From an uncultured Pseudomonadota bacterium (GTDB lineage: Bacteria; Pseudomonadota; Gammaproteobacteria; Steroidobacterales; Steroidobacteraceae), in NCBI GenBank assembly GCA_903885195.1, contig CAISHQ010000050.1, positions 1 to 41,241 of the forward strand: DNA of 41,241 nt, given 5' to 3'. A model generated the notes under the pieces. That model was not told where the DNA came from. It was given only the letters and a program-made list of their open reading frames with translations, and searched no databases. Below, in pieces: positions 4,251-38,776 of this stretch. The position numbers and the translations under genes are program-made. How positions within the stretch are numbered: the stretch's first letter is position 1; each line of letters starts with the position of its first letter.

Positions 4251-4286
4251 ATTCGTCGTCGCTACGCTATTCGTCGTCGCTGCGCT
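4251..4286. repeat. 18-bp tandem duplication at the 3' end of the cytochrome gene
   Basis: Two adjacent 18-bp units (4251-4268 and 4269-4286) differ at a single base within the shared unit. The second unit encodes the last residues of the cytochrome (RSDDE). The first lies just past its stop and, read on in frame, would encode the same residues again. Confidence 0.8.
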
Positions 4287-5526
4287 GCTCGGCGACGTCT
4301 GCTTCAGTGACCTTGCCGCCACGATTGCCCCAGCTGCTGCGCAGATAGTTGGCGATCTGCGCCACCTCGTCATCGTCGAGCGAGTCGTAGAGCGGTTTCA
4401 TGTTTTTCCAGGCCTTCGGCGGTGTCGGCGTGATGACCTGGGTGCCGTAGAGAATGATATTGATGAGCGAGTAGGGCTCGGGCGACTGAACGACGGCGCT
4501 GCCCGCCAGCGGCGGACCGAGGTCCTCGCCGGGCTTGGCGCCGGCGCCCGTGGGCAAATGACACGTTCCGCAGTGAATGGTGTACAGCGTCTCGCCCGCG
4601 CCGCGTTCCCGATCCGACAGACTCTGTTCGTCGCTGCGCTCGACGGCTGGCAGGCTCTTCAGGTACACCGCCATCGCACGCACGTCAGCGTCACTGAGGT
4701 TACGCGTGCTGTTCTCGATCACCTCGTTCATGGGGCCGAACGATCCGGCCCGCGTGCCATGCCCGGTCTTGAGGTAGGACGTCAGATCGCCGATGGACCA
4801 GGCGCGCAGACCACTTTGCGCCTGAGTCAGGTTGACCGCGCTCCAGCGACGCACGGCACCGCCCGGAATCTTGTCGTAATACCACCCGCCGGCCATCGCC
4901 TGATCGGTCTTCTCGGCACCCAAGAGATTGCGCGGCGAATGACAGGCACCGCAATGACCGAGCGCCTCGACCAGGTAGGCGCCCCGGTTCCACTCGGCAC
5001 TGCGATCCTGCCGCGGCGTCAATCGCGCCGACTCGAAAAACATCGACTTCCACGGTCCAAGCAATTGCCGCTGGCCGAAAGGGAAACGCATATCGTTGTC
5101 CGGTGCCCGATAGGCAGAGGCCGGAACGGTCTTGAAGTAGGCGTAGAGATCCGCAAGATCTGCGTCGGTCAGGCGAGTGAAGGCCGTGTAGGGAAACGCC
5201 GGATACAGATGCTGGCCCTGCTCGTCCACGCCCTCACGAAACGCGCGCACGAATTGCGCCAGCGTCCAGCGGCCGATGCCGGCCTGAGGGTGACTCGTGA
5301 TGTTGGTCGAGTAGATGACGCCGAAATCGGTGGTGAACGGCAAACCACCCTCGTACGGCTTACCACCCGAGCGTGTGTGGCAAGTCTGGCAGTTGGCCGC
5401 CGTGGCGAGATAGCGCCCGCGAGCCACGGCATCCTGTGCCAGTGCACTCGCTCCCTCGGTCGCGGCTGCGATCAGCACCACGACGGAGACGAAAAACCGA
5501 CGCCAATCCGCTCGTGCCTTGATCAT
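4267..5526 (-). CDS. Tri-heme c-type cytochrome (alcohol dehydrogenase cytochrome-subunit type)
   Basis: A 419-residue periplasmic electron carrier with an N-terminal signal peptide (hydrophobic 11-22, cleavage near ALA|Q) and three haem c attachment motifs: CQTCH at 46-50, CGACH at 192-196 and CGTCH at 319-323. Three CxxCH sites in about 420 residues match the AdhB/GndH-type cytochrome subunits that accept electrons from periplasmic dehydrogenases. It is first in a leftward operon with the Tat-exported amine oxidase (62-bp gap) and an FGE-fold protein. It could also serve the molybdoenzyme at 7333-9582, because that family often uses this kind of cytochrome. The C-terminus sits inside an 18-bp duplication. 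Confidence 0.92.
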   Translation of the reverse strand: MIKARADWRRFFVSVVVLIAAATEGASALAQDAVARGRYLATAANCQTCHTRSGGKPYEGGLPFTTDFGVIYSTNITSHPQAGIGRWTLAQFVRAFREGVDEQGQHLYPAFPYTAFTRLTDADLADLYAYFKTVPASAYRAPDNDMRFPFGQRQLLGPWKSMFFESARLTPRQDRSAEWNRGAYLVEALGHCGACHSPRNLLGAEKTDQAMAGGWYYDKIPGGAVRRWSAVNLTQAQSGLRAWSIGDLTSYLKTGHGTRAGSFGPMNEVIENSTRNLSDADVRAMAVYLKSLPAVERSDEQSLSDRERGAGETLYTIHCGTCHLPTGAGAKPGEDLGPPLAGSAVVQSPEPYSLINIILYGTQVITPTPPKAWKNMKPLYDSLDDDEVAQIANYLRSSWGNRGGKVTEADVAEQRSDDE

Positions 5527-9582: not shown

Positions 9583-9642
9583 GGTGGCGGTCTCACTCCG
9601 GGAAATGACTGTGCGATTATAGGCTGGCTCAAGGGGGGACTA

Positions 9643-12835: not shown

Positions 12836-14041
12836 TCAACCGCCGACGGTGACGCCCTGCATGGGTTCGCCGCTGCGCATGATCGCAGACCAGGAGCGAT
12901 CGCCGCCGAAGCGGATGCCCTTGAAGTCACCCGGCTTCTCGTCGAGCACGTTGGTGTAGAGCTTCATGCCCTTGTAGGTCCATTGCAGCTTGCCGCTCTC
13001 GAGCCGGGCGACCCCCCAACTGCCGATCGGCTTGTCGCTTGGGGATGCGTAGAACGGCTTCCACTGTGCATCGATGCAGGTGCCATCGGGACATTTAACC
13101 CCGGGGCCGCGATACACGCGCGAGCCACGCGCATTGGCACCGAACGAATAAATCGTGATGCCCTGCTTGTTGGCAATCAACTCCCCCGCGTCGGACGGCT
13201 GCACCGTCGCCCAAGGCGGCAACGGCGGCGCGGGCTCGAGCACGATCGCCTGCCAGCCATCGACGCCATGACCGAAGGTCTCGCCCGCCGACACGTCGCC
13301 GCTGCTGTAGCGATAGAGCGGTTTGCCGCGAAACGCCCACTGCCGTGAACCATCGGCACGCGCGACGGTCGTCCAATCGCCGGTCTGTCGCGTCGCGCCC
13401 CAAGGCGCCGCCAGCGGCTGCCAGGACCGCAGGCAATCACGATCGTTGCAGCCTGGCGTCTTGCCGGGCTTGTCGTCCCCGCTCGCGTAGAGCGTCAGGC
13501 CCTTGGCGTCGGTGAGCACCTGGCCGAGATACGTCGGACGGATCCGGACTTCGCGAGGCAGCGGAATTTGCTTGAGTGCCGCTCGCCACACCGTGCCAAC
13601 GCCGTCGCCAAACGACGCGCCCGGTGCATCGTCGAGCGTGTATCGATACAGCGGGCGCCCGCGAAAGGCCCACTGCAAACTGCCATCGGCACGCTGCACC
13701 ATCGACCATCCGGGCGGAGGGTTGGCGCCCGCCGGAGCGAGCACCGCAGGCCAGTTCGTCGCGCAAGGACCCTCGCAAGCCGAGCGACCCGGCGTGCCCT
13801 CGTCACGATCGTAAAAATAGAGCGTCATGCCCCGCGCATCGGTGAACACGAGACCGTCGCCGCGCGGTCGCGTGGCAATGCCGGCCGGCAACGCCACCGC
13901 CGCGGCACTCGTCGGCGCCGAACCGGCTTGGCCGGACGTGGCTTGCGCCGCGCTTGCCGACCACTCGGCCAGCAGCATCGTGGCCATCGCCACGGCGAGG
14001 CCGCCTGCAAAGGGTCGACGGATCGACGCGTTTCGCACCAT
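12836..14041 (-). CDS. Secreted three-repeat protein of the Yx(FWY)xxD type (PF03640/COG4315-like), copy 1
   Basis: A 401-residue secreted protein: signal peptide to about residue 35, then three imperfect repeats of about 110 residues. Each repeat opens with a motif such as GMTLYFYDRD, GLTLYASGDD or GITIYSFGAN. It continues with a Cys pair and a W-P core (CEGPCATNWPAV) and ends with a module like ADGSLQWAFRGRPLYRY. This matches the 'secreted repeat of unknown function' family. Paired cysteines suggest disulfides. It is the last gene of a four-gene leftward cassette, 14 bp after the DUF1552 gene. A paralog with the same three-repeat plan lies at 18916-20055. Biochemical role unknown; proteins of this family are extracytoplasmic. 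Confidence 0.87.
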   Translation of the reverse strand: MVRNASIRRPFAGGLAVAMATMLLAEWSASAAQATSGQAGSAPTSAAAVALPAGIATRPRGDGLVFTDARGMTLYFYDRDEGTPGRSACEGPCATNWPAVLAPAGANPPPGWSMVQRADGSLQWAFRGRPLYRYTLDDAPGASFGDGVGTVWRAALKQIPLPREVRIRPTYLGQVLTDAKGLTLYASGDDKPGKTPGCNDRDCLRSWQPLAAPWGATRQTGDWTTVARADGSRQWAFRGKPLYRYSSGDVSAGETFGHGVDGWQAIVLEPAPPLPPWATVQPSDAGELIANKQGITIYSFGANARGSRVYRGPGVKCPDGTCIDAQWKPFYASPSDKPIGSWGVARLESGKLQWTYKGMKLYTNVLDEKPGDFKGIRFGGDRSWSAIMRSGEPMQGVTVGG

Positions 14042-14055
14042 GGGCCGCTGCGCGC

Positions 14056-15432
14056 TCAGACGAGGATTTCGGTGATGGTCTTCGAGGTCTGCAGCGAGCG
14101 GGTACCCCAGGTATCGATGGGCACACCCATCACCTGCATCGCGGTCAGGCCGACGCGCGTGATCGGATCGCCATTACCGACGACATGCAGACCCGTTTTG
14201 ATGCGCCCACCGGCGTTACCCGCCGTGAATACGGGCACGCCGTCGACGGAGTGCACGCGCGCATAGTTGGTCTCGGTGGCGGCAAAGATCAGCATGTTGT
14301 CGAGCAGCGAGCCGGCGCCTTCACGGATGTTTGCGAAGGCATCGATGAAAGTCGCGAACGCATCCATCGTGCGGCAGTTGAACCAGAACGCCACCGGCTG
14401 GTAGCCGAGCACCTTATCCGGCGTCTCTTCGTGCGTCAGCAAGTGGTGGGTGTAGGTCTGCCCCGGGCGACGCATGTGCGAGAAGTTGTCGCTGAAGACC
14501 ATGTTGAATACTTTGGTCTGGTTGCAAGCGACGGCCATCGCCATCATCTGCGACATAACCTTGTGGTTGGCCACCACAGTGTCGACCTCGAGACCCTGCG
14601 GCATATCCTGCTCGGCGCCATCGCGACGCGGTGCACTCGGGATCGCACAGGATTGGTTGGGCTCTGGCTTGCGCAACTGCGCCTCCAGTTGTCCTTCGAG
14701 CTGACGGATCGAGGTGAAGTACTCGTCGAGTCGCTGCCGGTCCGCCGTGCCAACACGGCGCAGCAGGGCCTTGCGCTCATCGGTCACCGCGGAGAGCACG
14801 CTGCGCCGCACCATCATCCGGGTGTCGGGCTTGAAGTCGGTCTTGTTCGGATCGGCGAACTCGACGCCGAACACGCGTGAGTAGAGCCGCTCCGGCGAGG
14901 CCTCGGCGGCCGCGCGGCTGTTGGTGCTGCGGGCGCTGTAGTTCTCACGCGCGATGCCGCAGGCCGTGGCGTCGATGGTCTGGAACCGCGAGCCACGGGC
15001 GATGTGGTCGGCCACGAGCAGATCGAGCGTGGGAGCCGGAATCTCGCTATTGGTCGATGGCGCAGAGCCCGTACGCGAAGCCACCCAACCGCTGAAATGC
15101 GTGTAGTTGGAGCGGCCATCGAGCGGCATGTTGAAGCCGCCGAAGAAGTTCAGGTGCTTCTCATGACGCTTGAGCGGCAGACACTCGGTCAGGAATTCGA
15201 TGCCTTCGGCGGTGCGCGTCTTCGGCACGATCGCGTGACCCGGCGTATGCCCAAGACCCCAGTACCAGGTGCCGAAACGCACCGGCAGCGGAGCGCCGGT
15301 CCCCGCCAGTGCGGTGCCGCTTTCGTTCAGAAATGCGTCGAGGAAAGGCAGGGAAATGCCGATCGTCGCGCCGCCCAACGCGCCGCGCAGGACTGACCGA
15401 CGGGTGACGGGACGCGGTAACAGAATGCTCAT
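14056..15432 (-). CDS. Tat-exported DUF1552 protein, copy 1
   Basis: A 458-residue protein with a Tat signal (TRRSVLRGALGGATIGISLPFLDAF) followed by the DUF1552 body. Recognisable stretches are VRFGTWYWGLGHTPGH, LNFFGGFNMPLDGR, LDEYFTSIRQLEGQLE and a conserved end GTRSLQTSKTITEILV. DUF1552 proteins are usually encoded next to DUF1592-type cytochrome-like proteins, and that holds here: the start overlaps the DUF1592 stop as ATGA. The chemical function of the family is not established. It shares the whole architecture with the copy at 20074-21420, including near-identical C-termini, so the two arose by duplication. Confidence 0.92.
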   Translation of the reverse strand: MSILLPRPVTRRSVLRGALGGATIGISLPFLDAFLNESGTALAGTGAPLPVRFGTWYWGLGHTPGHAIVPKTRTAEGIEFLTECLPLKRHEKHLNFFGGFNMPLDGRSNYTHFSGWVASRTGSAPSTNSEIPAPTLDLLVADHIARGSRFQTIDATACGIARENYSARSTNSRAAAEASPERLYSRVFGVEFADPNKTDFKPDTRMMVRRSVLSAVTDERKALLRRVGTADRQRLDEYFTSIRQLEGQLEAQLRKPEPNQSCAIPSAPRRDGAEQDMPQGLEVDTVVANHKVMSQMMAMAVACNQTKVFNMVFSDNFSHMRRPGQTYTHHLLTHEETPDKVLGYQPVAFWFNCRTMDAFATFIDAFANIREGAGSLLDNMLIFAATETNYARVHSVDGVPVFTAGNAGGRIKTGLHVVGNGDPITRVGLTAMQVMGVPIDTWGTRSLQTSKTITEILV

Positions 15433-17084
15433 GACTTGCCTCTCGGACTGCCATTGACGGCGGCCGTACGGGCCGCTGGTTGCCTCACAGCATACATTGC
15501 TTCACCGAGCGCGATCTCGCGCAGCAGCGCCCGGACCTTGAAACCATCGTCCTCGAAGCGGTGCTCGAGGTGCTTGAGGTACTTGCGCTCGTTGCGTACC
15601 GGGGTACGCGCGGTGGCATAGGAATAAAGCCGGTTGACGAGGCAGGCCGGCGCCGCCGGGTTCTCGCGCAGGGCGGGGCCGATCCCGGCCACGTCCTTGA
15701 AGTCGAAACCGTCGAGCTCGCCGGTCGCATCGATCGGGTAGCCCTCTTCGGAGGTGCGCAGCTGGCCGGCCCCGTCGATGTGCTCCATGCCGAGGCCCAC
15801 TGGATCGGTGAGCTTGTGGCAGCCAGCACAAGCAGGCTCGATCGAATGCACGGTCAGGCGCTCGCGGGCGGTGTGCGCCGGGGATTGCGGATCGTTGAAC
15901 TTCGAGAAATCGACGGTGCCCGGCGGATCCGGCACCCGCTGACACAGCAGGATTTCGCGGATCGCCTTGCCGCGCAGCGTCGGCGAACTGCGCCCGGCAT
16001 GCGAGTGCAGGGCCGTGAAGCTGATGTGCGTGGCGATGCCGACCCGCGGATCACCTTCGGGGAACTCGTACTCCATCCAGCCGCCGTCGGGCCGCGAGAC
16101 GGGGACGCGATAGATCCGCCCGAGCGGTCCGCTGAGGAACGTCTTGCGGGTCGTGAACACGTCGCGATAATCGCCATCCTGCCGCAGCACCACGTCCATC
16201 ATCGTGCGCAAGGTCTGCTCGCGGGCATCGTTGGCGACAGCCGTGCTGAACGCCGGGTAGATGATCGCGTCCTTTTCAAGTCGCGCGATGTTCTCGAAGT
16301 TGAGCATATCGTCAAAGAAAAGGCGCAAGCCCTGCTCGAGGCGCGGCGAGTCGAGCAGGCGATCAACCTGCTTCTTCATCATCCGTGGCGCGTGCAACTC
16401 GCCGCTCTCGGCGACGCGCAACAACTCGTCATCGGGCGAAGTGCCCCACAGGAAGAAACTCAGCCGTGCGGCTTTGGCGTAGGCATCGAGGCGCACCGCA
16501 CCTTCGCGATCCGGATCGGGCTCGACCTCCTCGATGACGAAGAGGAACGAGGGCGAAATCAGCATGCCCGCGAGTCCTGCGGCGAGCCCCTCGTGGAAAC
16601 TGCCGAGCTCGGTGGTGGCAGCGTCCGCCACGGCTACGGCTGCATCGAGTTCATCTTTGCTCAAGGGCCTGCGGTACAGCAGTCGACCCGTGTCGCGGAA
16701 AAACAGGCGTGCGCACTGCGGATCGGGGCTCAGCGCATCGGCCGGCGCGCAGGGGATGAGAAAGTCGCGGTTTTCCTCGCTCGTCACCTGCGCTGCAATG
16801 GATCGCGCCATGCGATCGAGCTGCTCGAGACCTGCGGGAGTGATGTGCGCATCCGAAGAACCAACCGTCAACAGGCCGTTGGTCCGAACCAGAGGATCGA
16901 AGGTGCCACCGATCGTGATCTGCTCGCCAAAGATATCGGCGATGATGCGCCGATACTGCGGCTCGGTCAGCAGACGCATGCCGGGTTCAGCGCCGCGGGT
17001 TGCCGGCGTTCCGCCGCCGCAGGCCGCCAGAATCCCAAACGACAGGGCAAGCGCCAGCAAGGCAACACCACGCACACGACTCAC
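15429..17084 (-). CDS. DUF1592/DUF1588-type lipoprotein with one CxxCH, copy 1
   Basis: A 551-residue protein. The GTG at 17084 is preferred over a farther GTG at 17111 because it overlaps the upstream stop as GTGA and has a textbook ribosome site (AAGGAG, 8 nt spacing). It then starts MSRVRGVALLALALSFGILAACGGG, a lipoprotein signal with a lipobox ending LAAC. The body shows the DUF1592-type order: LLTEPQYRRIIADIFG near the N-terminus, RLSFFLWGTSPDDELL in the middle, RGKAIREILLCQRVPDPPG, then CAGCHKLTDPVGLGMEHIDGAG with a haem c-type CxxCH at 419-423. Probably membrane-anchored on the periplasmic side. It is coupled to DUF1552 downstream. Function unknown; the CxxCH suggests electron transfer. 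Confidence 0.9.
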   Translation of the reverse strand: MSRVRGVALLALALSFGILAACGGGTPATRGAEPGMRLLTEPQYRRIIADIFGEQITIGGTFDPLVRTNGLLTVGSSDAHITPAGLEQLDRMARSIAAQVTSEENRDFLIPCAPADALSPDPQCARLFFRDTGRLLYRRPLSKDELDAAVAVADAATTELGSFHEGLAAGLAGMLISPSFLFVIEEVEPDPDREGAVRLDAYAKAARLSFFLWGTSPDDELLRVAESGELHAPRMMKKQVDRLLDSPRLEQGLRLFFDDMLNFENIARLEKDAIIYPAFSTAVANDAREQTLRTMMDVVLRQDGDYRDVFTTRKTFLSGPLGRIYRVPVSRPDGGWMEYEFPEGDPRVGIATHISFTALHSHAGRSSPTLRGKAIREILLCQRVPDPPGTVDFSKFNDPQSPAHTARERLTVHSIEPACAGCHKLTDPVGLGMEHIDGAGQLRTSEEGYPIDATGELDGFDFKDVAGIGPALRENPAAPACLVNRLYSYATARTPVRNERKYLKHLEHRFEDDGFKVRALLREIALGEAMYAVRQPAARTAAVNGSPRGKS

Positions 17085-18250
17085 CGGAACCACTCCTTGA
17101 CGCGCTGCCACCAGCCTTGACCCGCACTCATCGTGCCTGCGGCCCCGTCATGCACGACGAAGGCCGACACCGCCTTGAACACGAAGGCCGAAGACAGCGC
17201 AGTGCACTCGCCCGTCTTCGGATCGGGATAGCCGTCGGCGATCTCGTGCGCCGCCACGTAGATCGAAGGACAGTTGGAGATCGCCGTCGACTGGATCGGG
17301 CCAAGTCCGCCGATGTAGAACATGAGCTCGTCGAGATCGAAATAGGCGGCGGCCGTTCCTTCGGCGCTATCACCGTCCTTGGACAGGGTCATGCGCATCC
17401 GCAGATCGCGAAACAGGCGATTTTGATAGGTGTAGTTGCCGTAGAACGGAAGGTTGACGTCACCCGGCTCCGTGATCAGCACGCCGTTGACGATCTTGCC
17501 GCGCACTTGACTCGCATAGCGCGGCTTACCCCCGTAAGTGTCGATGCGATAGCTGCCATGCGGCAGAAATCGGCCGCTGCCATCGAGGGTGTACAGATCG
17601 ATCGATCGATAGAAGTTGACCGTCACCTCGGGATCGTTGCGCGGGTTGTCGACGCCCGTGATCTCGATCAGCGTCATGCCTTTGCCGTTCGACTTGCGGT
17701 TCTCGTTTTCGTTGGCCTCGAACTGACCGTACGAACGAAATCCGTAAACGCAGCCGAGCAGTCGATAGAGTTGGTTGTCGACGCCCTTGGTGCCGTCGAT
17801 ACCCGTGAATTCCTTGTGCGGACAGGACCGACCGGCAGTCACGCCATCCTTGCCGTCGAGATCCATGCCATAGGCCTTCTCGCTCTCCACGAGCCGATGC
17901 GGCGGATCTTTCACCACGGTCGGGTTCATGCAGACGTCTTCGCCGTTCGGCCCGCGCCGGATGGCGTTGAAATAACGCTCGAGCCGGCTCTTCAAGCCGT
18001 TGTCCGTGTAGCGCGCCCGATCGGGCTTGGAGAGGCTGCGCCACCAGTACTCGTCATAGCCGACATTGAGGCCTTCGGGGCACTCGTCGACGAATCGCGT
18101 CTCGTAGGACGCGATGTTCCAGGTGGTGACGACGAAGCCCATAGACTGGCCATTCGCGGCGGCGTGCAACGGCGCCTGCGCGGCTATGGCAAGGAGACCG
18201 AACAGCGAAACGAACGCGGCCCGGCGGGCAAAGAGCGAAGTGGACATCAT
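17081..18250 (-). CDS. Secreted Cys-rich protein of unknown family (stand-alone form)
   Basis: I do not recognise this family. The 389-residue product (ATG at 18250; ATG at 18247 also possible) begins with a signal peptide ending near LHAA. Six cysteines in the mature part are matched one for one in the C-terminal half of the fusion protein at 23054-24754: MDECPEG, GEDVC, a Cys before the HK/HS-F(T/V)G segment, LLGC, NCPS and TGEC. Other shared stretches are WNIASYE, DPPHR, YGMDLDG, GVDNQLYR, GKPRYASQVRG, NLPFYGN and HEIADGYPDP. The conserved Cys and acidic residues suggest a disulfide-bonded, perhaps metal- or ligand-binding periplasmic protein (inference). It is first in its cassette and coupled (GTGA) to the DUF1592 lipoprotein. 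Confidence 0.85.
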   Translation of the reverse strand: MMSTSLFARRAAFVSLFGLLAIAAQAPLHAAANGQSMGFVVTTWNIASYETRFVDECPEGLNVGYDEYWWRSLSKPDRARYTDNGLKSRLERYFNAIRRGPNGEDVCMNPTVVKDPPHRLVESEKAYGMDLDGKDGVTAGRSCPHKEFTGIDGTKGVDNQLYRLLGCVYGFRSYGQFEANENENRKSNGKGMTLIEITGVDNPRNDPEVTVNFYRSIDLYTLDGSGRFLPHGSYRIDTYGGKPRYASQVRGKIVNGVLITEPGDVNLPFYGNYTYQNRLFRDLRMRMTLSKDGDSAEGTAAAYFDLDELMFYIGGLGPIQSTAISNCPSIYVAAHEIADGYPDPKTGECTALSSAFVFKAVSAFVVHDGAAGTMSAGQGWWQRVKEWFR

Positions 18251-18374
18251 GGCCCGTGGGTATACCAACTTTCGCCCCAGCTACGCCATGCCGGAACCCC
18301 ACCGAACACCTGCCGGCTCACACAGTGGACAAGGCAACCACGGGCTCCCGGCTCATTGCCGCGTTGGCTGCAGA

Positions 18375-18914
18375 ATGTGCTCCCCGTCCGGTCCGACACT
18401 GCGAGGTCTCGTGTTCATCCCACTTCGTGCCTTCAGTCACTGCCTGTTGGCACTGCTGGGTTGCGCCATCCTCGCGCCTGGTGCCATCGCGGCCAACGAC
18501 GACATCGTCTACACCGCCGTGCTGTCGGATGAGGATCAGAGCACGCCGACATACAGTCCCGGCAAGGGGTTCGCCGAATTTCGCCTCGAACGGGCGACGC
18601 TGAAACTGACTTGGAAAATCACCTACCAGGGACTGACCTCACCGCCGATCGCAGCCGGTCTCTATGGGCCAGAGAACGTCGGTGCCAATGCCGGACAAGT
18701 CGTCGATCTCGGCACCCGGGGTCTGCGCAGCCCGATCGTGGGTTCGACCATCGTCAGCGATGGCGTGCTCGGCTACCTGACCACGGGCCGCGTCTACGTG
18801 AACATCCACACCCGTCGCTACAAGGACGGTGAACTGCGCGGCCAGTTGCGCAGGCAGCGGACGGCCACCGCGCCCGCATCAGCACCCGCGCCTGCGTCAG
18901 CGCCCGCCCGCTGA
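18375..18914 (+). CDS. Secreted CHRD-domain protein
   Basis: A CHRD domain (found in chordin and in bacterial secreted proteins) with a signal peptide ending near GAIA|AND. Landmarks are YTAVLSDEDQSTP, GFAEFRLERATLKLTWKITYQGL, TTGRVYVNIHTRRYKDGELRGQL. The C-terminus is a short Ala/Pro-rich tail of repeated APASAPA units. The ATG at 18375 gives 179 residues. A GTG at 18411 preceded by GAGGT gives a more compact signal peptide and is a real alternative. The gene is divergent from the unknown Cys-rich gene and stops 1 bp from the stop of a convergent PF03640-type gene. In the second cassette the homologous domain is fused to the N-terminus of the Cys-rich protein. Confidence 0.85.
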   Translation: MCSPSGPTLRGLVFIPLRAFSHCLLALLGCAILAPGAIAANDDIVYTAVLSDEDQSTPTYSPGKGFAEFRLERATLKLTWKITYQGLTSPPIAAGLYGPENVGANAGQVVDLGTRGLRSPIVGSTIVSDGVLGYLTTGRVYVNIHTRRYKDGELRGQLRRQRTATAPASAPAPASAPAR

Positions 18915-18915
18915 A

Positions 18916-20055
18916 TTACAGTTCGTAATCGCGCCGTCGCAGCAGCGGATTCCAGCCACCACCCGCGCCACCGGAGCCGGCGGCCCACTTGTCGCCACCG
19001 ACCGCACCGGGTTCACGGTCTCGGCTGTGCGTATACAGCGCATCACCCTTGTAGGCCCACACCCGCGCGCCATCACCGAAGGGCGACTCGATGACGGTCC
19101 ACTCGCCGGAGGGGCGTGCCTCGGCGGCAGCCGGCACGAGGCGCCAATTGCGACGGATGCACTCGTCATTGCAAATCAACGTGCGAATCCGTTCGAGCGG
19201 CCCGGCAAGTGTGTAGAGCGTGAATCCGCGCGCATCGGCATAGACCTCGCCCATGTCGGCGCGCTGGATCTTGAGCCACGAAGGCAGCGGTGCCGCCGGT
19301 TCCAATACGGCCGCACGCCAGGCGTCGCGCTCGGCCGCTTCGCCCGTGCTGTCACCCGGCTGCAAATCGCCCACATGCAGATACAGCGGACGACCCTTGT
19401 AAGTCCACTGGCGCGGACCATCGTCACGATCGATCGGGCTGAATTCCCCCACGGCGTTCGCCAGCATCGGCGCCGGGAGCGGCTGAAACTCACGCAGGCA
19501 TTCCTCGACGCAGCGCAGTTTGGCTGTGCCGCCGGACTTCGGCACCTCGTCCTCGTGCCAGTAGAGCGTGAGCCCGCGGGCCTCGACGAGCGTACGCCCG
19601 ATATGAATCGAGCGCAGCGCGATACCGGGCGGCGTGCGCAGTGGCACGTGCGCCACACGCCAGGCCTGGCCCACTCGATCACCGAGTGCCACACGCGGCG
19701 CGGCGTCTTTTGCGAAGCTGTAGAGCGGCTTGCCACGGAATGACCACTGCCGCGTGCCATCGGGACGACTGATCGCCACCCAGTCGGCGGTCGGCGAAGC
19801 GACCGAATCGGCCGGCAGCGGCGGCCACAGCTTCGCGCACTCGGCGACGCAGCTCGACACGTCGCGCACGGAATCGCGGGCGTAGGTATAGAGCACGCGG
19901 CCGCGGGAATCGAGCAGCGTCGCGCCCGCCGCAGTGCGCTGCGCGGCCAGCCCTTTGGGCAGCACCAACTCCGCGGACACGGCGCAAGGAATGGAGGCCG
20001 CCACAAGCAGCCACGCTCCAAGGCTCAACCAGCGCATCGGCGGCACGCGTCGCAT
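18916..20055 (-). CDS. Secreted three-repeat protein of the Yx(FWY)xxD type (PF03640/COG4315-like), copy 2
   Basis: A 379-residue secreted protein with a signal peptide (WLLVAASIPCAVSA) and three diverged repeats opening GRVLYTYARD, GLTLYWHEDE and GFTLYTLAGP. Each carries a Cys pair near a W-P or related core (CVAECAKLWPPL, CVEECLREFQPL, CNDECIRRNWRL) and ends with a QWSFRGKPLYSF, QWTYKGRPLYLH or VWAYKGDALYTH module. It occupies the same last position in cassette B as 12836-14041 does in cassette A, 18 bp after DUF1552. The C-terminus is Gly-rich. Start could be six codons further in (ATG before RWLSLG). Function of the family is unknown. Confidence 0.87.
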   Translation of the reverse strand: MRRVPPMRWLSLGAWLLVAASIPCAVSAELVLPKGLAAQRTAAGATLLDSRGRVLYTYARDSVRDVSSCVAECAKLWPPLPADSVASPTADWVAISRPDGTRQWSFRGKPLYSFAKDAAPRVALGDRVGQAWRVAHVPLRTPPGIALRSIHIGRTLVEARGLTLYWHEDEVPKSGGTAKLRCVEECLREFQPLPAPMLANAVGEFSPIDRDDGPRQWTYKGRPLYLHVGDLQPGDSTGEAAERDAWRAAVLEPAAPLPSWLKIQRADMGEVYADARGFTLYTLAGPLERIRTLICNDECIRRNWRLVPAAAEARPSGEWTVIESPFGDGARVWAYKGDALYTHSRDREPGAVGGDKWAAGSGGAGGGWNPLLRRRDYEL

Positions 20056-20073
20056 CAGATAGATCGCGTCACG

Positions 20074-21420
20074 TTAAACGAGCACTTCGCTGATGGTCTT
20101 CGAGGTCTGCAGCGAACCGGTGCCCCAGGTTTCGATCGGCAAACCCATCACCTGCATGGCCGTCAGTCCCACGCGCGACACGGGGTCGCCGTGCCCCGCA
20201 ATGTGCTTGCCCGTCTTCAGCCGACCAGCGGCGCGGCCGATCGTCATCACCGGAATGTTGTCGACGGCATGCACTTTGGCGTAGCTCGTTTCGGCATGGG
20301 CGAAGATCAGCGTGTTGTCGAGCAGTGTGCCATTGCCTTCCTTGACCGACTTGAAGATGCCGATGAAGCTCGCCAACGCTTCCATGACCCGGCAATTGAA
20401 CCAGAACGCTTCTGGCTGATAGCCGAATTTCTGATCGACGGCCTCTTCGTGGGTCAAGGTGTGGTGGGTGTAAGCCGTGCCCGGGCGACGTAGACTCGAC
20501 AGGGCATTGTTGAAGGCCATGTTGAACACGCGCGTCTGGTTGCAGGCGAGCGCCATCACCAACAACCGCGCCATGGCGTCGTGGTTACCCTGCGCAACGT
20601 TGATCTCGAGACCGACCGGCCCCTCTGCAGGAAGCTGCGGCTTGAGGCAGGCGGCGAGCGCAGCGGGCTGCTGTTGTTGCAGCGCGAGCTGGGTCTCGAG
20701 CTGACGGATGGAGGTGAAGTACTCATCGAGGCGCGCACGATCGGCGGCGCCTACGCGCCGCTCGAACCGTTGCCGCTGCTCGCGGATGCCCGACAGCACG
20801 CTCTGCTGCAGCATCAGATCGGGATCGGCTTGCGAGCCCGTCTTTGCGGGATCTTGGAAACCTTCGCCGAACAGGCGGGCGTATAGGGCTCGCGGCGAGA
20901 CCTCGCCCGCATTACGCGTATGCGTGTTGCGCGCCGTGAACGAGTCGCGCGGATTTCCCGTGCAGGTCATGTCGATCGAACGGAACCGCGTATTGCCGCC
21001 GATAGCATCGGCGACGAGCACATCCAGAGTCGGTGCCGGAATGTCGCCGGGCAACACCGGCGCGGTCGCCGTGCGGGTGGCTACCCAGCCGGTGTGATGG
21101 ACGTGATTCGGTCTGCCGTCGAGCGGTGAATTGAAGTGGCCAAAGTAATTGATCTCATCGACGTACGGGATCAGCGCCTTGCACTCCTCGAGGAACTCGA
21201 TGCGGTCGGTCCGCTCGCCGACCGCATAGCCCGGCGTGTGCCCCATCGACCAGAACCAGGTACCGAAACGCACTGGCACGGGCGCTCCCGAGGCCAGCGC
21301 CTCGCCACTCTCGCTGAGAAAGCAGTCGAGGAACGGCAAGCTCACGGCGATCGCCGAGCCGCCGATCGAGCCGCGCAATACGTCGCGGCGAGTAAAGGGT
21401 TTTTTGATCAGAACGCTCAT
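20074..21420 (-). CDS. Tat-exported DUF1552 protein, copy 2
   Basis: A 448-residue paralog of 14056-15432, with a Tat signal (TRRDVLRGSIGGSAIAVSLPFLD) and the same order of conserved blocks: VRFGTWFWSMGHTPGY, INYFGHFNSPLDGRPNH, LDEYFTSIRQLETQL, ending GTGSLQTSKTISEVLV. Export by Tat implies folding, possibly with a cofactor, before secretion. The start overlaps the DUF1592 stop as ATGA, exactly as in the other cassette. The enzymatic role of DUF1552 is not established. The strict pairing with DUF1592 in both cassettes supports a joint complex (inference). Confidence 0.92.
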   Translation of the reverse strand: MSVLIKKPFTRRDVLRGSIGGSAIAVSLPFLDCFLSESGEALASGAPVPVRFGTWFWSMGHTPGYAVGERTDRIEFLEECKALIPYVDEINYFGHFNSPLDGRPNHVHHTGWVATRTATAPVLPGDIPAPTLDVLVADAIGGNTRFRSIDMTCTGNPRDSFTARNTHTRNAGEVSPRALYARLFGEGFQDPAKTGSQADPDLMLQQSVLSGIREQRQRFERRVGAADRARLDEYFTSIRQLETQLALQQQQPAALAACLKPQLPAEGPVGLEINVAQGNHDAMARLLVMALACNQTRVFNMAFNNALSSLRRPGTAYTHHTLTHEEAVDQKFGYQPEAFWFNCRVMEALASFIGIFKSVKEGNGTLLDNTLIFAHAETSYAKVHAVDNIPVMTIGRAAGRLKTGKHIAGHGDPVSRVGLTAMQVMGLPIETWGTGSLQTSKTISEVLV

Positions 21421-23057
21421 GTACGTGGCTCCTTGCGGTCGAGCAGCGCCGTGCGAACGGGCGTCACGCTGACCGCGTACAAAGCATCGCTTGTGGCGAT
21501 GTCAGAGATCAACTCCCGCAGACGGAAATCCTCCGCCGCGAACTCGTCCTCAAAATGATTGAGGAGCTTCCGTTCGCTGCGCTGTATGGGTCGGCCTGCG
21601 GCGTAAGTGTAGGCGCGACGCACGAGGCACGCTGGCACGGCCGGATCGTCGCGTAATGCCGACCCGAGCCCCGAAGAATCGGTGAAGCGGATGCCATTGA
21701 TCTCGCCGCTCGTGTCGATGAGTTCGCCGTTTTCGTACCCGCGCTGCTGACCGGCGCCATCAAAGTTTTCGAGGGCCAGCCCGATCGGATCCATCAACTT
21801 ATGGCAACCGGAGCAGGATGGGTCGGTGGAATGGCGAACGAGGCGATCGCGCGCCGTTTTGCTGGCTGAATTCGGATCGTTGAACAGATCAAAGTTCACA
21901 CTTCCTGGCGGATCCGGCACGCGCTGACAGAGCAGCAGTTCGCGGATCGCCTTGCCGCGCAGCGTCGGTGAGCTCTTGCCGGGATGCGAATGCAAGGCTA
22001 CGAAACTCAATTGGGTTTGGATGCCGGCCCGCGGGTCACCCTCCGGAAACTCGAACGGCACCCAGCCACCGCTCGGCGAGGCTGCAGGCACGCGATACAC
22101 GAGCCCGAGCGGCCCACTCATCACGGTCCGGCGCGTGGTGAAGATGTCGCGGTAGTCCTCTTCGCGCACCAGCAGCATCTCCACCAAAGTACGCAGCACC
22201 TGCTCCCGCGCATCGTTCGCCACCGCGAGGCTGAACGCCGGATAGAGGCTGGAGTCTTTCTCGAGCGTCTGGAAGTCATCGAGCGCGAGCATGTCGGTGA
22301 AAAACGCGCGCACACCGGTTTCGAAGCGCGTCGAAGCCATCATGCGCTCGACCTGACGGCGGATGCCGCGCATATCGTCCAGCTCACCGCGCTCAGCCGC
22401 TGCGAGCAACGCTTCGTCGGGTGTCGTGTTCCAAAGGAAGAGACTCAGCCGCGTGGCGCGCGAATAACCATCGAGCTGCGGCTGGCCCTTTTTGTCCGTG
22501 ACCACATTCTCAGCGACGAACAGGAATTCCGGCGAGGCCAGCATCGCCTGCAATCCGTACGCGAGACCCGCGTGGAAATCCCCTCGAGTGGCGGCGGCGC
22601 GCTCGGCGAGTTGCACGAACGACGCGACTTCTGCTGCCGCGAGCGGCCGACGAAAAAGATAACGCCCGGTCTGCGCAATGAAGCGCTCGGCACATTGGGC
22701 ATCGAAGGTCGCCCCTTGCGCCGGCTGACAGGAGACGAGCAACTCTCGATTGCCCTCGGCCATCACTTGCGTCGCAATCGATCGCGCCAGCGCGATGTAG
22801 CGCTCGACACCGAAAGGCGTCACCGTCGCCCGCCCGGCGCCGATGGCGAGCAGGCCCTCGACGCGCACGATCGGATCGAAGCGTGCTGCCACCTCAATGT
22901 GTTCGCCGAAAACGTCGGCGATAACGTTGCGGTACTGAGACTCGGTAAGCAGGCGCAGTGTCGGCGGTCCGCCGCGCGTCGACGGCTCACGCGAACCGCA
23001 AGCCACGAGCAACAGCGCACCCAAAGCAGCGCAGGCGATGCGTGTGAAGCGTTTCAT
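21417..23057 (-). CDS. DUF1592/DUF1588-type lipoprotein with one CxxCH, copy 2
   Basis: A 546-residue paralog of 15429-17084. It starts with a lipoprotein signal (MKRFTRIACAALGALLLVACGS, lipobox LVAC). Shared blocks are LLTESQYRNVIADVFGEHI, RLSLFLWNTTPDEALL, RGKAIRELLLCQRVPDPPG and CSGCHKLMDPIGLALENFDGAG, with the haem c-type CxxCH at 415-419. The ATG overlaps the stop of the upstream CHRD fusion gene (ATGA), so the whole cassette is translationally coupled. In other bacteria such proteins are secreted and cytochrome-like. One haem is possible, but no axial Met can be assigned by eye. Confidence 0.9.
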   Translation of the reverse strand: MKRFTRIACAALGALLLVACGSREPSTRGGPPTLRLLTESQYRNVIADVFGEHIEVAARFDPIVRVEGLLAIGAGRATVTPFGVERYIALARSIATQVMAEGNRELLVSCQPAQGATFDAQCAERFIAQTGRYLFRRPLAAAEVASFVQLAERAAATRGDFHAGLAYGLQAMLASPEFLFVAENVVTDKKGQPQLDGYSRATRLSLFLWNTTPDEALLAAAERGELDDMRGIRRQVERMMASTRFETGVRAFFTDMLALDDFQTLEKDSSLYPAFSLAVANDAREQVLRTLVEMLLVREEDYRDIFTTRRTVMSGPLGLVYRVPAASPSGGWVPFEFPEGDPRAGIQTQLSFVALHSHPGKSSPTLRGKAIRELLLCQRVPDPPGSVNFDLFNDPNSASKTARDRLVRHSTDPSCSGCHKLMDPIGLALENFDGAGQQRGYENGELIDTSGEINGIRFTDSSGLGSALRDDPAVPACLVRRAYTYAAGRPIQRSERKLLNHFEDEFAAEDFRLRELISDIATSDALYAVSVTPVRTALLDRKEPRT

Positions 23058-24754
23058 CGAGACGCCCTCACCGGCGTCTCGGCTGACTCATGCACGATAA
23101 ATGCCGGCAGCGCATCCATGCGAAACGCCGAAGAAATCGCCGTGCAATCTCCCGTGCGAGGGTCAGGGTAGCCATCAGCGAGTTCGCGCGCCGCCTGGTA
23201 CAACCCGGGACAACTCCAATCGCCGGTGGCAATGAGAAACTCCAGCTTCAGCATGTATTCCCACCACTTGTCGAAATCGTAGTAGCCGCCGACGAGGCCA
23301 TGCACCTTGCCGTCTTTGGCAGGCTTCAGATCGAGTTCGAGGCGCATGTCCTTCAGATCGAGTTCCGCGTAGGCAGCGTTGCCGTAAAACGGCAGTTTGA
23401 GACTGAGCGGTTCGGTCTTCAGGACGCCGTTTTCGATTCGGCCCCGAGCCACGGCGCCGTAGCGTGGCTTACCGTCGTGCGTATCCACGCGATAGCTGGC
23501 CCACGGCAGGATCCGCCCCGCACTGTCGATCTGGTAGGGATCCGTGGCGCGATAGAAACCCACCTCGACGTTCGGCGAGTTGCGTTCGTCGGTGACGCCC
23601 TTGATTTCGAGCAAGATGACGCCGCGTCCACTGTTGCGTCGCTCCTCATTGCCGAAGGTGTCGAGCACGCCGTTGCGACGCCAACCGTAGTGGCAACCGA
23701 GCACCCGGTACATCTGGTTGTCGACACCGCGCTCGCCACGTACACCAACGAAATTGGAGTGGGCGCAGGACTTGGGCGTGGCACGACCATCGCTGCGACC
23801 GTCGAGATCGAAGCCGTAGGCCACCTTGCCCTTCACGGTGCGCAGGGGTGGATCCTTGACGAGCGTGGGATTCCAGCACACGTCTTCACCCTTCGGACCA
23901 CGGAACACGGACACGAACCGACGATCGACCGGCTGTACCAGACCCTTGTCGGTCAGCTTGTCCTTGTCGGCCCGCGCCAGACCCCGCCACCACAACTCGT
24001 CGTTGCCGATCGCAGGACCCTCCGGACACTCGTCCATGAAGCGCGATTCGTATATAGCGTTATCCCAATTGGCGACCACGTAGCCGAGGGTGCGCGGACG
24101 GCGCGCGGTTTGCGCACGCGCCGGGGACGCCGCAACGGACGGCGCCTTGCTCGAGGTGACGCGTATCGGTGGTGCGGGCTCGGGCAAAGCGGCCAATTGC
24201 TCTGCTGTCAGCGGCACGCGCTGGATCTGGCCGCGCAATTCCCCAGCCGGGTAGCGCGCCGTGCGCACATTGACGTACATCCGACCGGCCAGTAAGTAGT
24301 CGAGTTGCGCCTCGGTTAGTACCGCGGAACCCTGCAATCGCGGCGCGAGGCCGCGCGGCGCCAAATCGATCTGCACGCCGGCATTGGTGCCCGGCCGCTG
24401 TGGCCCGTTGACCGACACGCCGAGCGCACGCGAGGTCAGTTTGTCCACGTTGACACGCCAGGAGAAAGTCAGCGTCTGCCGATCGAGAGAAAATTCGGCG
24501 CGCCCGCTGCCCACGCTCGCCACCGTGGCCGTTTGTTCGCCGGCTGACAAATCGGCATAGAAGCGCACCGGCCCAAGATGCAGATTCGCAGGCGCCGGCG
24601 CAGCGATTTGCGCTGAAGCACGCACCGGGTGCAGGGCGAAGACACCCAGCAAGCCCATCACAGCTACCCAAAACCCAACCGACCCTACAGATATGGATCC
24701 AACTGTCGAAGCCCGAGACTTCGGCTGAGGCGAGCGCAGGATGGAGATCAGCAT
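23054..24754 (-). CDS. Secreted fusion protein: CHRD domain plus Cys-rich domain of unknown family
   Basis: From the ATG at 24754 this is 566 residues. An ATG at 24892 with its own GGGAG site would add 46 residues, but that places the hydrophobic signal segment (FWVAVMGLLGVFALHPVRASA) about 70 residues in and only 20 bp separates it from the divergent cupin start, so the shorter form is preferred. Residues about 60-185 form a CHRD domain (FYADLSAGEQTATV to YVNVRTARYPAGELRGQI). A Pro/Ala linker leads to residues about 225-566, homologous to the whole mature protein at 17081-18250, with the same six cysteines. It heads cassette B and is coupled to DUF1592. The fusion implies that the separate CHRD and Cys-rich proteins of cassette A interact (inference). 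Confidence 0.87.
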   Translation of the reverse strand: MLISILRSPQPKSRASTVGSISVGSVGFWVAVMGLLGVFALHPVRASAQIAAPAPANLHLGPVRFYADLSAGEQTATVASVGSGRAEFSLDRQTLTFSWRVNVDKLTSRALGVSVNGPQRPGTNAGVQIDLAPRGLAPRLQGSAVLTEAQLDYLLAGRMYVNVRTARYPAGELRGQIQRVPLTAEQLAALPEPAPPIRVTSSKAPSVAASPARAQTARRPRTLGYVVANWDNAIYESRFMDECPEGPAIGNDELWWRGLARADKDKLTDKGLVQPVDRRFVSVFRGPKGEDVCWNPTLVKDPPLRTVKGKVAYGFDLDGRSDGRATPKSCAHSNFVGVRGERGVDNQMYRVLGCHYGWRRNGVLDTFGNEERRNSGRGVILLEIKGVTDERNSPNVEVGFYRATDPYQIDSAGRILPWASYRVDTHDGKPRYGAVARGRIENGVLKTEPLSLKLPFYGNAAYAELDLKDMRLELDLKPAKDGKVHGLVGGYYDFDKWWEYMLKLEFLIATGDWSCPGLYQAARELADGYPDPRTGDCTAISSAFRMDALPAFIVHESAETPVRASR

Positions 24755-24912
24755 GCAAAGTACGGTAACGGAACCACCGGGGCGGTGCCAAACCGATCTC
24801 TCAGTAATCCGCTGGATGAAACCAACGACACTTGATCGGGACTGTCGGGGTTCCCTGACCACTATAGTCGGCGAGTTCCGATCGACTGACATTCGTACTC
24901 CCGGGGGACTCC

Positions 24913-28619: not shown

Positions 28620-28774
28620 CCTAGCCTGAGCCCCGGCCCCACCCCACGACACCGCCCGTCTGTTCACCCTGCGAATGGACGATGCTTTTTTGTGTACCGG
28701 AGCCGTTTTCCTCCGTAGCCTCAGCGCTGCATCACCCGTCTATACGGGACAACAACAAACGCTCAGGGGGCTTA

Positions 28775-32659: not shown

Positions 32660-32668
32660 GAAACTCCC

Positions 32669-32697
32669 TTGTTCACTGGGGCGTTGGGGATGATATC
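32669..32697 (+). promoter_or_regulatory. Possible sigma70-type promoter in the apbE/small-protein divergent gap
   Basis: TTGTTC at 32669-32674 and GATATC at 32692-32697 are separated by 17 bp, in the 66-bp gap between divergent genes and 28 bp before the start of the small-protein gene. Each hexamer matches the consensus only in part, so this is tentative. Confidence 0.25.
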
Positions 32698-32725
32698 GTC
32701 GGTCTGTTCTGCAGGAGGTTAGCCC

Positions 32726-33061: not shown

Positions 33062-33085
33062 AGGCGCGCACTCCGGGGGTGATCC

Positions 33086-38642: not shown

Positions 38643-38776
38643 AACCCACCCCCCGACAGGTTGACGAACGACGATGACGATACGCCATACCACAGGGCGG
38701 CGCACGGCTTCCTCGACGGTTCCGCCGAAGCGTGGCTCACTCTAGGATCGGACGACCACACTGAGATCGGACGGGT

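Follow-up and report, generated by a model that had tools for sequence, protein, structure and literature searches.

The closest described systems are the adjacent gene pairs for "Planctomycete-specific" cytochromes (PSCyt3/PSD, DUF1585-1595) and DUF1552 proteins, a group of no known function. PSCyt2 and PSCyt3 genes usually adjoin two unknown gene families, and the function of the PSCyt/PSD proteins is described as unknown (PMC5615132). The locus analyzed here lies in a stretch of 41,241 nucleotides from an uncultured member of the Steroidobacterales, referred to as the window, and resembles these pairs in its Pfam domains, adjacent genes and CXXCH motif. It differs from ordinary pairs in that its DUF1552 proteins (window-type) form a separate subfamily, with Glu in place of the third His of the HXXSHH motif in 93%, and in that the cassettes of this type contain a gene of a Cys-rich family (73/75) and a PF03640 gene (66/75).

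A second comparison is offered by Cbp2D of Cellvibrio japonicus, a redox protein that is exported and contains DUF1587 as well as CXXCH domains. Cbp2D and Cbp2E are both reported in the source's account of them as required for growth on insoluble cellulose (PMC12542752). Unlike Cbp2D, the window proteins are products of stand-alone genes that form a cassette with those for DUF1552 and a predicted barrel, and no carbohydrate-binding module could be detected by Pfam scan in either window DUF1592 protein. The predicted fold of DUF1552 is like that of the alkaline phosphatase/sulfatase superfamily, from which it differs in its genetic tie to heme proteins and in a catalytic site that is putative. 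The fourth protein matches the secreted PF03640 Lipoprotein_15 (SCO0930-type) repeat proteins well above the Pfam cut-off, whereas with the NCBIfam SCO0930 model the copy 1 protein scored 151 bits, short of the cut-off of 275 bits.

Organization and relatedness of the two cassettes

The window contains two leftward cassettes with the order Cys-rich protein, DUF1592, DUF1552 and PF03640 repeat protein, both on the - strand as given in the preliminary description (Table 1). The stop-start overlaps noted there between the first three genes were present in both cassettes with a length of 4 bases each (17081-17084 and 15429-15432 in copy 1; 23054-23057 and 21417-21420 in copy 2), and the gap ahead of the PF03640 gene was 14 bases in copy 1 and 18 bases in copy 2. 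The Sec, Tat or lipoprotein signals ascribed to the members could also be recognized by eye: DUF1552 has a Tat-type RR, the two DUF1592 proteins of the window each have a lipobox, and the others have Sec-like N-termini. CHRD had been assigned to both cassettes; it is fused to the Cys-rich protein in copy 2 only, whereas copy 1 has a separate + strand gene divergent from the Cys gene, starting at ATG 18375 or GTG 18411. The copy 1 DUF1592 start at 17084 is a GTG within a longer ORF (15429-17111), which was the one used for the Pfam scan. The fused ORF of copy 2 has several possible starts (24892, 24754 and 24658), the latter two being likelier.

Table 1. Features of the two cassettes and of neighboring genes in the window
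Feature	Position	Strand	Remarks
Copy 1 Cys-family protein, 388 aa	17081..18247	-	6 Cys in mature part
Copy 1 DUF1595/1592/1588/1585 protein (PSD5-PSD4-PSCyt3-PSD2)	15429..17084	-	Pfam; one CXXCH
Copy 1 DUF1552 (PF07586)	14056..15432	-	Pfam E 3.9e-37; twin-arginine signal; HLLTHE
Copy 1 PF03640 (Lipoprotein_15) repeat protein	12836..14041	-	Pfam E 4.4e-51
Separate CHRD-domain gene linked to copy 1	18375..18914	+	PF07452 E 1.1e-16
Copy 2 CHRD fused to Cys-family domain	23054..24892	-	CHRD E 3.4e-18
Copy 2 DUF1592-block protein	21417..23057	-	Pfam; one CXXCH
Copy 2 DUF1552	20074..21420	-	Pfam E 3.7e-38; twin-arginine signal; HTLTHE
Copy 2 PF03640 repeat protein	18916..20055	-	Pfam E 4.7e-43
Three-CXXCH cytochrome c	4267..5526	-	7.3 kb from copy 1; candidate electron partner
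Two TonB-dependent receptors	26037-28553, 28682-31282	+	NCBIfam TonB models for first

Comparison of the nine window genes with their relatives gave dN/dS values of 0.02-0.20, which indicates that they are under purifying selection. The values were 0.15 for the copy 1 Cys gene (vs L025), 0.12 for the separate CHRD gene (vs L023) and, for copy 2 vs L023, 0.035 for DUF1592, 0.019 for DUF1552 and 0.10 for PF03640. A PF07586 profile search of the source genome revealed just two DUF1552 places, both in the window, and searches for RNA families and tRNAs found none within the window.

The cassettes had been described as tandem duplicated. They are adjacent and homologous, with identities of 56, 54, 48-49 and 36-37% across the four protein pairs (48-49% for the Cys parts), and yet are probably not sisters. 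The copies were not sisters in the DUF1552 tree, and a constraint uniting both copies and their congeneric orthologues in one clade was rejected for DUF1552 (p 0.0079) and for the concatenation (p 0.00086), while the DUF1592 tree alone did not reject it (p 0.096). When a third congeneric paralogue was added, the constraint gave p 0.036 for DUF1552 and p 0.12 for the concatenation, the latter not a rejection. A recent tandem duplication is thus doubtful.

Linkage and co-inheritance of the cassette genes

The survey of 396 genomes of the order Steroidobacterales revealed the Cys family in 32 genomes and window-type DUF1552 in 32, of which 31 were common to both; in the two genomes with a single family, the genes lay on cut contigs. 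PF07586 occurred in 67 genomes, and 32 of these 67 had the window-type protein. Among 75 distinct window-type cassettes, most of them fetched through the Cys search, 73 had a same-strand Cys-family gene within 6 kb. Of the remaining two, L156 has its Cys gene 91 bp away on the opposite strand, and L177 retains only a Cys fragment at the contig end. Control loci of the same order with ordinary DUF1552, picked from the listed PF07586 places and mostly the strongest of them, contained neither Cys nor PF03640 genes (0/30 each), with an ordinary DUF1592 in 26 of the 30 stretches and a weak CHRD match in one (L208). Chance linkage could be ruled out by the genome tallies together with these controls.

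In the converse search by DUF1552 alone, 76 window-type places were found in 32 genomes. Sixty-six were in Cys-fetched loci or the window, and 10 were on nine newly fetched stretches with no Cys gene seen, in each of which a contig end cuts into or adjoins the cassette; none of the 76 places was on a complete contig with window-type DUF1552 and without a Cys gene. A strict one-to-one tie does not hold in the other direction, since 26 of 104 Cys genes had no window-type DUF1552 within 6 kb. For 21 of these 26, one flank within the stretch was shorter than 6 kb; where at least 6 kb was available on both sides, 5 of 55 Cys genes stood without DUF1552 (L019, L024, L140, L147 and L158). These Cys-without-DUF1552 counts and the cytochrome counts below leave out L112 (same contig as L025), L123 (overlapping L122) and L110 (same as L030); the 75-cassette count drops the two L112 cassettes, and the 94-locus TonB count keeps L112 and L110.

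The extra genes that the preliminary description placed beside DUF1552/DUF1592 therefore recur elsewhere in the case of the Cys-rich protein and PF03640, apart from the five Cys genes that stand alone. CHRD was found in 15 of the 75 cassettes, every one of them in Cys-first order; it is accessory and lineage-limited, and was rejected as a core member. Nine of the 75 cassettes had no PF03640. A c' gene of 38-45% identity was present in six loci without PF03640 (L145, L164, L166, L167, L169 and L178). PF03640 occurred together with a weaker c' match (26-30%) in L040, L134, L135, L136, L138 and L148, and L146 and L159 had neither; these loci contradict mutual exclusion of PF03640 and cytochrome c', which is a tendency only.

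Gene order varies by clade, with Cys-last in 31/75 and Cys-first in 26/75 cassettes. Fusions could be observed in several combinations, namely CHRD-Cys (window copy 2, L023, L025 and L029), Cys-DUF1592 (L151 and L161) and Cys-PF03640 (L130, L150 and L160), and they lead to predictions on which proteins touch. For 64 full cassettes, a set in which L112 was kept and two cassettes are repeats, the distance matrices of the four families were correlated with r 0.875-0.955 against a permutation maximum of 0.20, demonstrating co-inheritance. The three core genes (Cys, DUF1592 and DUF1552) were also found in the genome G823, which belongs to the phylum but not to the order, and on sphingomonad plasmids, mostly without PF03640, which was missing from the four opened plasmids apart from one weak match.

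Core proteins and neighboring genes

In both copies, DUF1595, 1592, 1588 and 1585 were all above the Pfam cut-off in one chain, and DUF1587 exceeded it in copy 2 only. Exactly one CXXCH motif was present in 75/75 window-type DUF1592 proteins and at least one in 28/28 ordinary ones; the window protein is thus a predicted carrier of a single covalent heme c.

The DUF1552 proteins scored 128.9 and 132.3 bits with the PF07586 profile (Pfam cut-off 30 bits), and the name-giving HXXSHH motif is absent from both, its third His being H in 32/32 ordinary DUF1552 proteins and E in the stated share of 77 window-type proteins. The subfamily is distinct, with profile scores of 416-782 vs at most 161 for ordinary members. 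In the alignment, H112, H330 and H334 were conserved in 100% of both the 77 window-type and the 32 ordinary proteins, and H394 in 98% and 100%, respectively; these four are candidate metal-site residues, and the histidine-to-glutamate change leads to predictions on the metal site. The AF2 model of DUF1552 was moderate (pLDDT 69.8). Among the 50 rows that VIA-align gave for the model, enzymes of the alkaline-phosphatase superfamily predominated (best Z 13.0, 233 residues, rmsd 3.9), which points to the overall fold of that superfamily in the model, and Foldseek returned no significant match (best E 0.033). No convincing PDB sequence relative of DUF1552, DUF1592 or PF03640 was found, a match to a yeast protein at E 0.077 being taken as chance. 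Alignment of the copy 1 PF03640 protein revealed three conserved cysteine pairs.

The copy 1 Cys protein is exported, and its AF2 model (pLDDT 86.4, pTM 0.85) predicts a beta-barrel of eight strands and a helical part at the N-terminus. A known family or fold was sought without a significant match: Pfam gave weak matches in 1-2 members each among 26 (best E 0.0039), PDB sequences no match up to E 1, NCBIfam nothing with either the copy 1 protein or the copy 2 fusion, and Foldseek a best E of 0.099. The weak Foldseek resemblances included TbpB-type and haemophore barrels (E 0.24-0.29). In VIA-align, the best Z in the comparison with YceI, lipocalin and avidin barrels was 6.3 (rhizavidin), under the level separating relatives from a common arrangement, and avidin, PsbO and phenolic acid decarboxylase barrels scored at or above the TbpB and haemophore types. 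As all Z values were below 8 across such varied barrels, the protein is indicated only as a generic barrel; the model suggests a barrel of a previously undescribed family.

About a third of the loci had cytochrome genes nearby. The triheme cytochrome c family (three CXXCH in 27/30 members) was present in 28/92 Cys loci and 0/30 control loci, cytochrome c' in 12/92 Cys loci and 4/30 ordinary DUF1552 loci, and b561 in 0/92 and 6/30, respectively. Neither triheme c nor c' was in the fetched stretch of 58/92 Cys loci, or in 31 of the 59 Cys loci of at least 15 kb. Receptors of the window TonB cluster, a pair beyond the cupin gene adjoining copy 2, occurred in 21/94 Cys loci and 4/30 controls; such receptors are common near Cys genes (two clusters, each in 21/94 loci) and represent context rather than core. 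Two FGE-sulfatase-family genes were also seen in the window, one by PF03781 and the other by eye.

Proposed function and alternative explanations

Because much the same protein team recurs in other bacteria, the cassette is probably one exported working unit which moves electrons outside the cell. The best explanation as a whole, which we regard as evenly poised between right and wrong, is one extracytoplasmic redox unit per cassette made of the DUF1592 heme protein, DUF1552 and the barrel; the invariant heme motif and the cytochrome neighbors speak for this proposed redox role. In such a unit, the DUF1592-block lipoprotein would carry a single covalent heme c, and the Tat-exported DUF1552, with its alkaline-phosphatase-type fold and conserved histidine cluster, would likely be the catalytic, metal-binding subunit. 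The Cys barrel may dock both to each other and to PF03640 or, in one lineage, to CHRD. The most likely electron path would link the DUF1552 site with the heme of DUF1592 and lead on to cytochromes that are small and soluble (triheme c or c') or to the membrane cytochrome b561. An extracellular or periplasmic organic substrate would be oxidized, and the products may enter by the neighboring TonB receptors.

The fold of DUF1552 would agree equally well with a hydrolase whose heme partner is structural or regulatory. DUF1552 would then be a phosphatase/sulfatase-like hydrolase acting on an exported substrate, with the heme protein and barrel only anchoring or regulating it, a reading which appears possible though somewhat unlikely. 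The VIA-align rows, mostly alkaline phosphatases, sulfatases and phospho-transferases, and the FGE-sulfatase-family genes of the window favor it; however, the heme motif is invariant, cytochrome neighbors recur, with the membrane b561 in two plasmids, and the conserved DUF1552 stretches were by eye unlike the classical two-metal site. A more specific form of the redox unit, tentative and unlikely as it stands, would make window-type DUF1552 a redox metalloenzyme on the alkaline-phosphatase fold, in which an HXXTHE histidine-carboxylate site replaces the two-metal site, the protein is exported ready-folded by Tat, electrons are exchanged with the DUF1592 heme, and the new barrel family holds the parts together. 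The alkaline-phosphatase superfamily is known for hydrolases, transferases and mutases; if this proposal were true, window-type DUF1552 would be an oxidoreductase within it.

It is decidedly unlikely that the cassette supplies electrons to a different secreted enzyme (for instance a copper monooxygenase), in the way proposed for Cellvibrio Cbp2D. The domains described for Cbp2D include DUF1587, the uncharacterized CXXCH domain X132 and X183, which is able to reduce LPMOs (PMC8981238), and DUF1592 is the annotation given to a CBM2 protein of Cellvibrio (PMC6004670). Against this, correspondence of X132 to the DUF1592 block is our own reading, the window proteins have no carbohydrate-binding module by Pfam, and no LPMO was among the scanned proteins, which were representatives only. 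A surface receptor or metal/heme-scavenging complex, with the barrel as a lipoprotein-like partner feeding the TonB receptors, is improbable: the receptors are nearby and there is a weak resemblance of the barrel to those of TbpB type and of haemophores, but other barrels score as high or higher, and the DUF1552 enzyme fold would be left unexplained. That the genes stay together by descent alone without acting together is very improbable, for although most loci come from one order, shared descent raises every linkage count and some Cys genes have no DUF1552, gene order changed between clades with varied fusions, the core genes also lie outside the order, and the same-order controls had no such partners.

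The occurrence of the cassette in named Sphingobium strains, among them Sphingobium sp. TomTYG73 (pTomTYG73a), makes the role of the proposed redox unit experimentally approachable. A substrate guess from the tomato Sphingobium strains was set aside with nothing concluded, the cassette being also on S. herbicidovorans and rhubarb-soil Novosphingobium plasmids. The arrangement Cys-DUF1592-DUF1552-cytochrome c'-cytochrome b561 was present in two of the four sphingomonad plasmids opened, and on S. herbicidovorans pMSHV, where the Cys gene is annotated as two ORFs, the genes adjoining the cassette encode cytochromes c' and b561 together with a TonB receptor and an AraC regulator.

Cassette structure and linkage of the Cys family to a DUF1552 subfamily

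The preliminary description of two minus-strand cassettes in the order Cys, DUF1592, DUF1552, PF03640, with the first three genes overlapping, was borne out by the coordinates: 4-base overlaps join genes 1–3 in both cassettes, and the gap to gene 4 is 14 or 18 bases. CHRD, also taken as a cassette part, is present with both copies but fused only in copy 2, being a free gene at copy 1, a distinction not made earlier. A PF07586 search of the window's genome revealed no third DUF1552 place, only the two cassette copies. Nine window genes had dN/dS values of 0.02–0.20 against relatives in loci L023 and L025.

Coordinates of cassette genes, redox genes and apparent gene pairs in the window
Feature	Position	Strand	Remark
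Copy 1 Cys-family protein	17081-18247	-	
Copy 1 DUF1592-block protein	15429-17084	-	
Copy 1 DUF1552	14056-15432	-	
Copy 1 PF03640 protein	12836-14041	-	
Copy 2 CHRD-Cys fusion	23054-24892	-	
Copy 2 DUF1592-block protein	21417-23057	-	
Copy 2 DUF1552	20074-21420	-	
Copy 2 PF03640 protein	18916-20055	-	
Separate CHRD gene	about 18375-18914	+	head to head with copy 1 Cys gene
ApbE-family gene (flavin transfer) + FAD_binding_2 protein	31769-33502, 38777-40303		
PQQ dehydrogenase	9568-11583		
Molybdopterin enzyme	7333-9582		
FGE-sulfatase-like	1791-2744, 34845-35849		apparent pair
Methyltransferase	33086-34288, 35788-36939		apparent pair
TonB receptor	26037-28553, 28682-31282		apparent pair
Cupin	5717-6556, 24913-25869		apparent pair
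MFS	11596-12834, 37296-38705		apparent pair

Among the 396 genomes of the window's order, the Cys family was present in 32 (alignment A2, 26 rows) and PF07586 in 67. Profile A3, run on these 67 genomes only, assigned the window-type DUF1552, a distinct subfamily found in cassettes, to 32 of them (E 1e-70 or better); its scores were bimodal, 416–782 bits vs at most 161 bits for ordinary DUF1552 and fragments. Both families occurred in 31 genomes, Cys only in one (G654), DUF1552 only in one (G632) and neither in 363. The Cys contig of G654 (6593 bases) carries an apparently cut, low-scoring DUF1552 (132 bits), and the DUF1552 contig of G632 (4046 bases) stops just past PF03640.

Outside the window, 75 distinct window-type cassettes were fetched, mostly via Cys matches. 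A Cys gene lay on the same strand, no more than 6 kb away, in 73 of them, and a window-type DUF1592 was present in 72, PF03640 in 66 and CHRD in 15. No Cys or PF03640 match was found at 30 control stretches with ordinary DUF1552 (26 with ordinary DUF1592), where CHRD gave one weak match. The expectation that the extra genes lie beside DUF1552/DUF1592 therefore held for Cys and PF03640, but for CHRD only in a minority of cassettes. Searching the other way, from DUF1552, turned up no complete cassette that lacked Cys. In the fetched loci, a window-type DUF1552 lay within 6 kb of 78/104 Cys genes; for 21 of the remaining 26, the stretch shows less than 6 kb on one side. Five Cys genes lacked it despite 6 kb or more of sequence on either side (L019, L024, L140, L147 and L158; 5/55 such genes), and at L140 a PF03640 gene adjoins the Cys gene; DUF1552 is thus not an obligatory neighbour of the Cys family, which also stands by itself or with PF03640.

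The order DUF1592-DUF1552-PF03640-Cys was observed in 31/75 distinct cassettes, Cys-DUF1592-DUF1552-PF03640 in 26 and DUF1592-DUF1552-Cys without PF03640 in five, further orders being rarer. Cys was fused to CHRD (window, L023, L025, L029), to DUF1592 (L151, L161) and to PF03640 (L130, L150, L160), with L161, L130, L150 and L160 all from the single genome G713. Across the four families, distance matrices correlated at r 0.875–0.955 (64 full cassettes, two repeats; maximum 0.20 in 1000 permutations), a correlation to which shared descent contributes. On the strength of linkage, rearrangement and fusion, a single working unit of DUF1592, DUF1552 and Cys is highly probable.

Relation of the copies and wider distribution

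Copies 1 and 2 are about 56–57% identical in DUF1552, 54% in DUF1592, 48–49% in Cys and 36–37% in PF03640, and copy 1 DUF1552 is 63% identical to that of L017 (a MAG labelled Rhodospirillaceae) vs 57% to copy 2. The proposed tandem duplication stands insofar as two homologous copies lie adjacent, but a recent, sister origin does not fit the DUF1552 tree (77 rows), in which they fall in separate supported groups. Forcing nine congeneric sequences together was rejected by DUF1552 (p 0.0079) and by a DUF1552+DUF1592+Cys concatenation (24 rows; p 0.00086), but not by DUF1592 alone (p 0.096); with a third congeneric paralogue added, values were p 0.036 for DUF1552 and p 0.12 for the concatenation. 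Both paralogues also occur side by side in L025 and L111. The safest reading is an old paralogue pair kept adjacent rather than a recent tandem duplication. The L017–L028 cassettes were interleaved in trees, although their MAGs, several of which stem from a single sampling project, are labelled Fidelibacterota (Marinimicrobia) or Rhodospirillaceae; this reflects either between-phyla transfer or mis-binning.

The Cys family is rare outside the window's order, occurring in 2/398 phylum-sample genomes, the window's own included, and in 3/51 genomes of a sample of the second, G823, and its relatives. A pattern scan of an 84,980-genome collection, reaching close relatives only, gave 14 Cys-family loci. 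An earlier two-row Cys profile matched 8/196 genomes of the window's order, and PF07586 occurred in 6/369 class-sample genomes. G713 (about 4.1 Mb, window's family; e.g. L129–L133, L150–L177) gave 27 Cys-family and 17 window-type DUF1552 matches, a large expansion, with some members fused to PF03640 or DUF1592.

When copy 1 Cys and DUF1552 proteins were searched by tblastn against 72,556 plasmid records, Cys matched 13 (12 Sphingobium, 1 Novosphingobium), which amount to fewer than 13 independent cases, several Sphingobium plasmids being near-identical in size. DUF1552 matched the same 13 at 46–49% identity and two others at 24–25% without a Cys match. The Cys-DUF1592-DUF1552 order was present in all four plasmids examined out of these 13, PF03640 being absent from three and weakly matched in the fourth. 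In S. herbicidovorans pMSHV and pTomTYG73a, the cassette is followed directly by genes for cytochrome c' and cytochrome b561 and closely preceded by those for a TonB receptor and an AraC regulator; the gene after the pTomTYG46a cassette instead belongs to the glyoxalase family. Another plasmid record, H27, carries an ordinary DUF1592/DUF1552 pair without Cys. Some Cys genes look broken: that of pMSHV (L220, 11007-12352) is annotated as two ORFs, and G639:C22:7-1032 and G611:C273:259-1224 have one in-frame TGA each.

Protein features and redox context

Exactly one CXXCH was found in 75/75 window-type DUF1592 proteins, and at least one in 28/28 ordinary ones. A simple lipobox pattern was present in 42/72 window-type rows, so by this test lipidation is not universal. 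In the alignment, DUF1552 has an invariant twin-arginine pair. Its predicted model (pLDDT 69.8, pTM 0.75) resembles the alkaline-phosphatase/sulfatase superfamily (VIA-align, Z to 13.0), while Foldseek alone gave no significant match (E 0.033). H112, H330 and H334 are conserved in 100% of 77 window-type and 32 ordinary proteins, and H394 in 98% of the former and 100% of the latter. At position 335, 93% of the window-type proteins have Glu, vs His in 100% of the ordinary ones. The chances that DUF1552 is the catalytic subunit are about even. The Cys-family model (pLDDT 86.4, pTM 0.85) is a generic eight-strand barrel, with best Z 6.3, to rhizavidin. Mature C28 and C138 occur in 26/26 sequences and the other four cysteines in just 14–15/26; therefore, the 'Cys-rich' label suits only part of the family. 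PF03640 proteins have three conserved cysteine pairs.

A cytochrome c family, mostly with three CXXCH and including window 4267-5526, was found at 28/92 Cys loci vs 0/30 controls, cytochrome c' relatives at 12/92 vs 4/30, and b561 at 0/92 vs 6/30. Either cytochrome c type occurred at 34/92 vs 4/30, or 28/59 vs 3/16 for stretches of at least 15 kb. Cytochromes therefore also occur near some ordinary DUF1552 genes, which would be expected if electrons are exchanged between cytochromes and the DUF1592 heme in either variant. TonB receptors of the window's cluster were found at 21/94 Cys loci vs 4/30 controls, and those of a second cluster at 21/94 vs 2/30. The window as a whole is rich in redox genes (ApbE, FAD_binding_2, PQQ dehydrogenase, molybdopterin enzyme). 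That the unit is redox-active, as first proposed, seems reasonably likely.

Open-access literature searched by DUF/Pfam names gave no paper with both DUF1552 and DUF1592, and no description of the Cys family, which has no name to search by, was found there. In PMC5615132, PSCyt/PSD domains and their usual uncharacterised neighbours are described in Verrucomicrobia, with nothing known of their functions. PMC8981238, PMC10916295 and PMC12542752 treat Cbp2D and relatives, covering DUF1587 next to the CXXCH domain X132, the reduction of LPMO by X183 and a requirement for growth on insoluble cellulose; we infer that X132 is the DUF1592 block. A Cellvibrio CBM2 protein is listed as 'DUF1592' in PMC6004670. 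The long-unexplained DUF1552/DUF1592 pair has here a clear, testable variant with a new partner family, Cys.

Two further observations concern neighbouring genes. At the control loci (L179–L208), a gene of one cluster, represented by an ankyrin-repeat protein, was present in 21/30, vs 0/94 Cys loci. Many other window genes appear paired, several of them named by eye.
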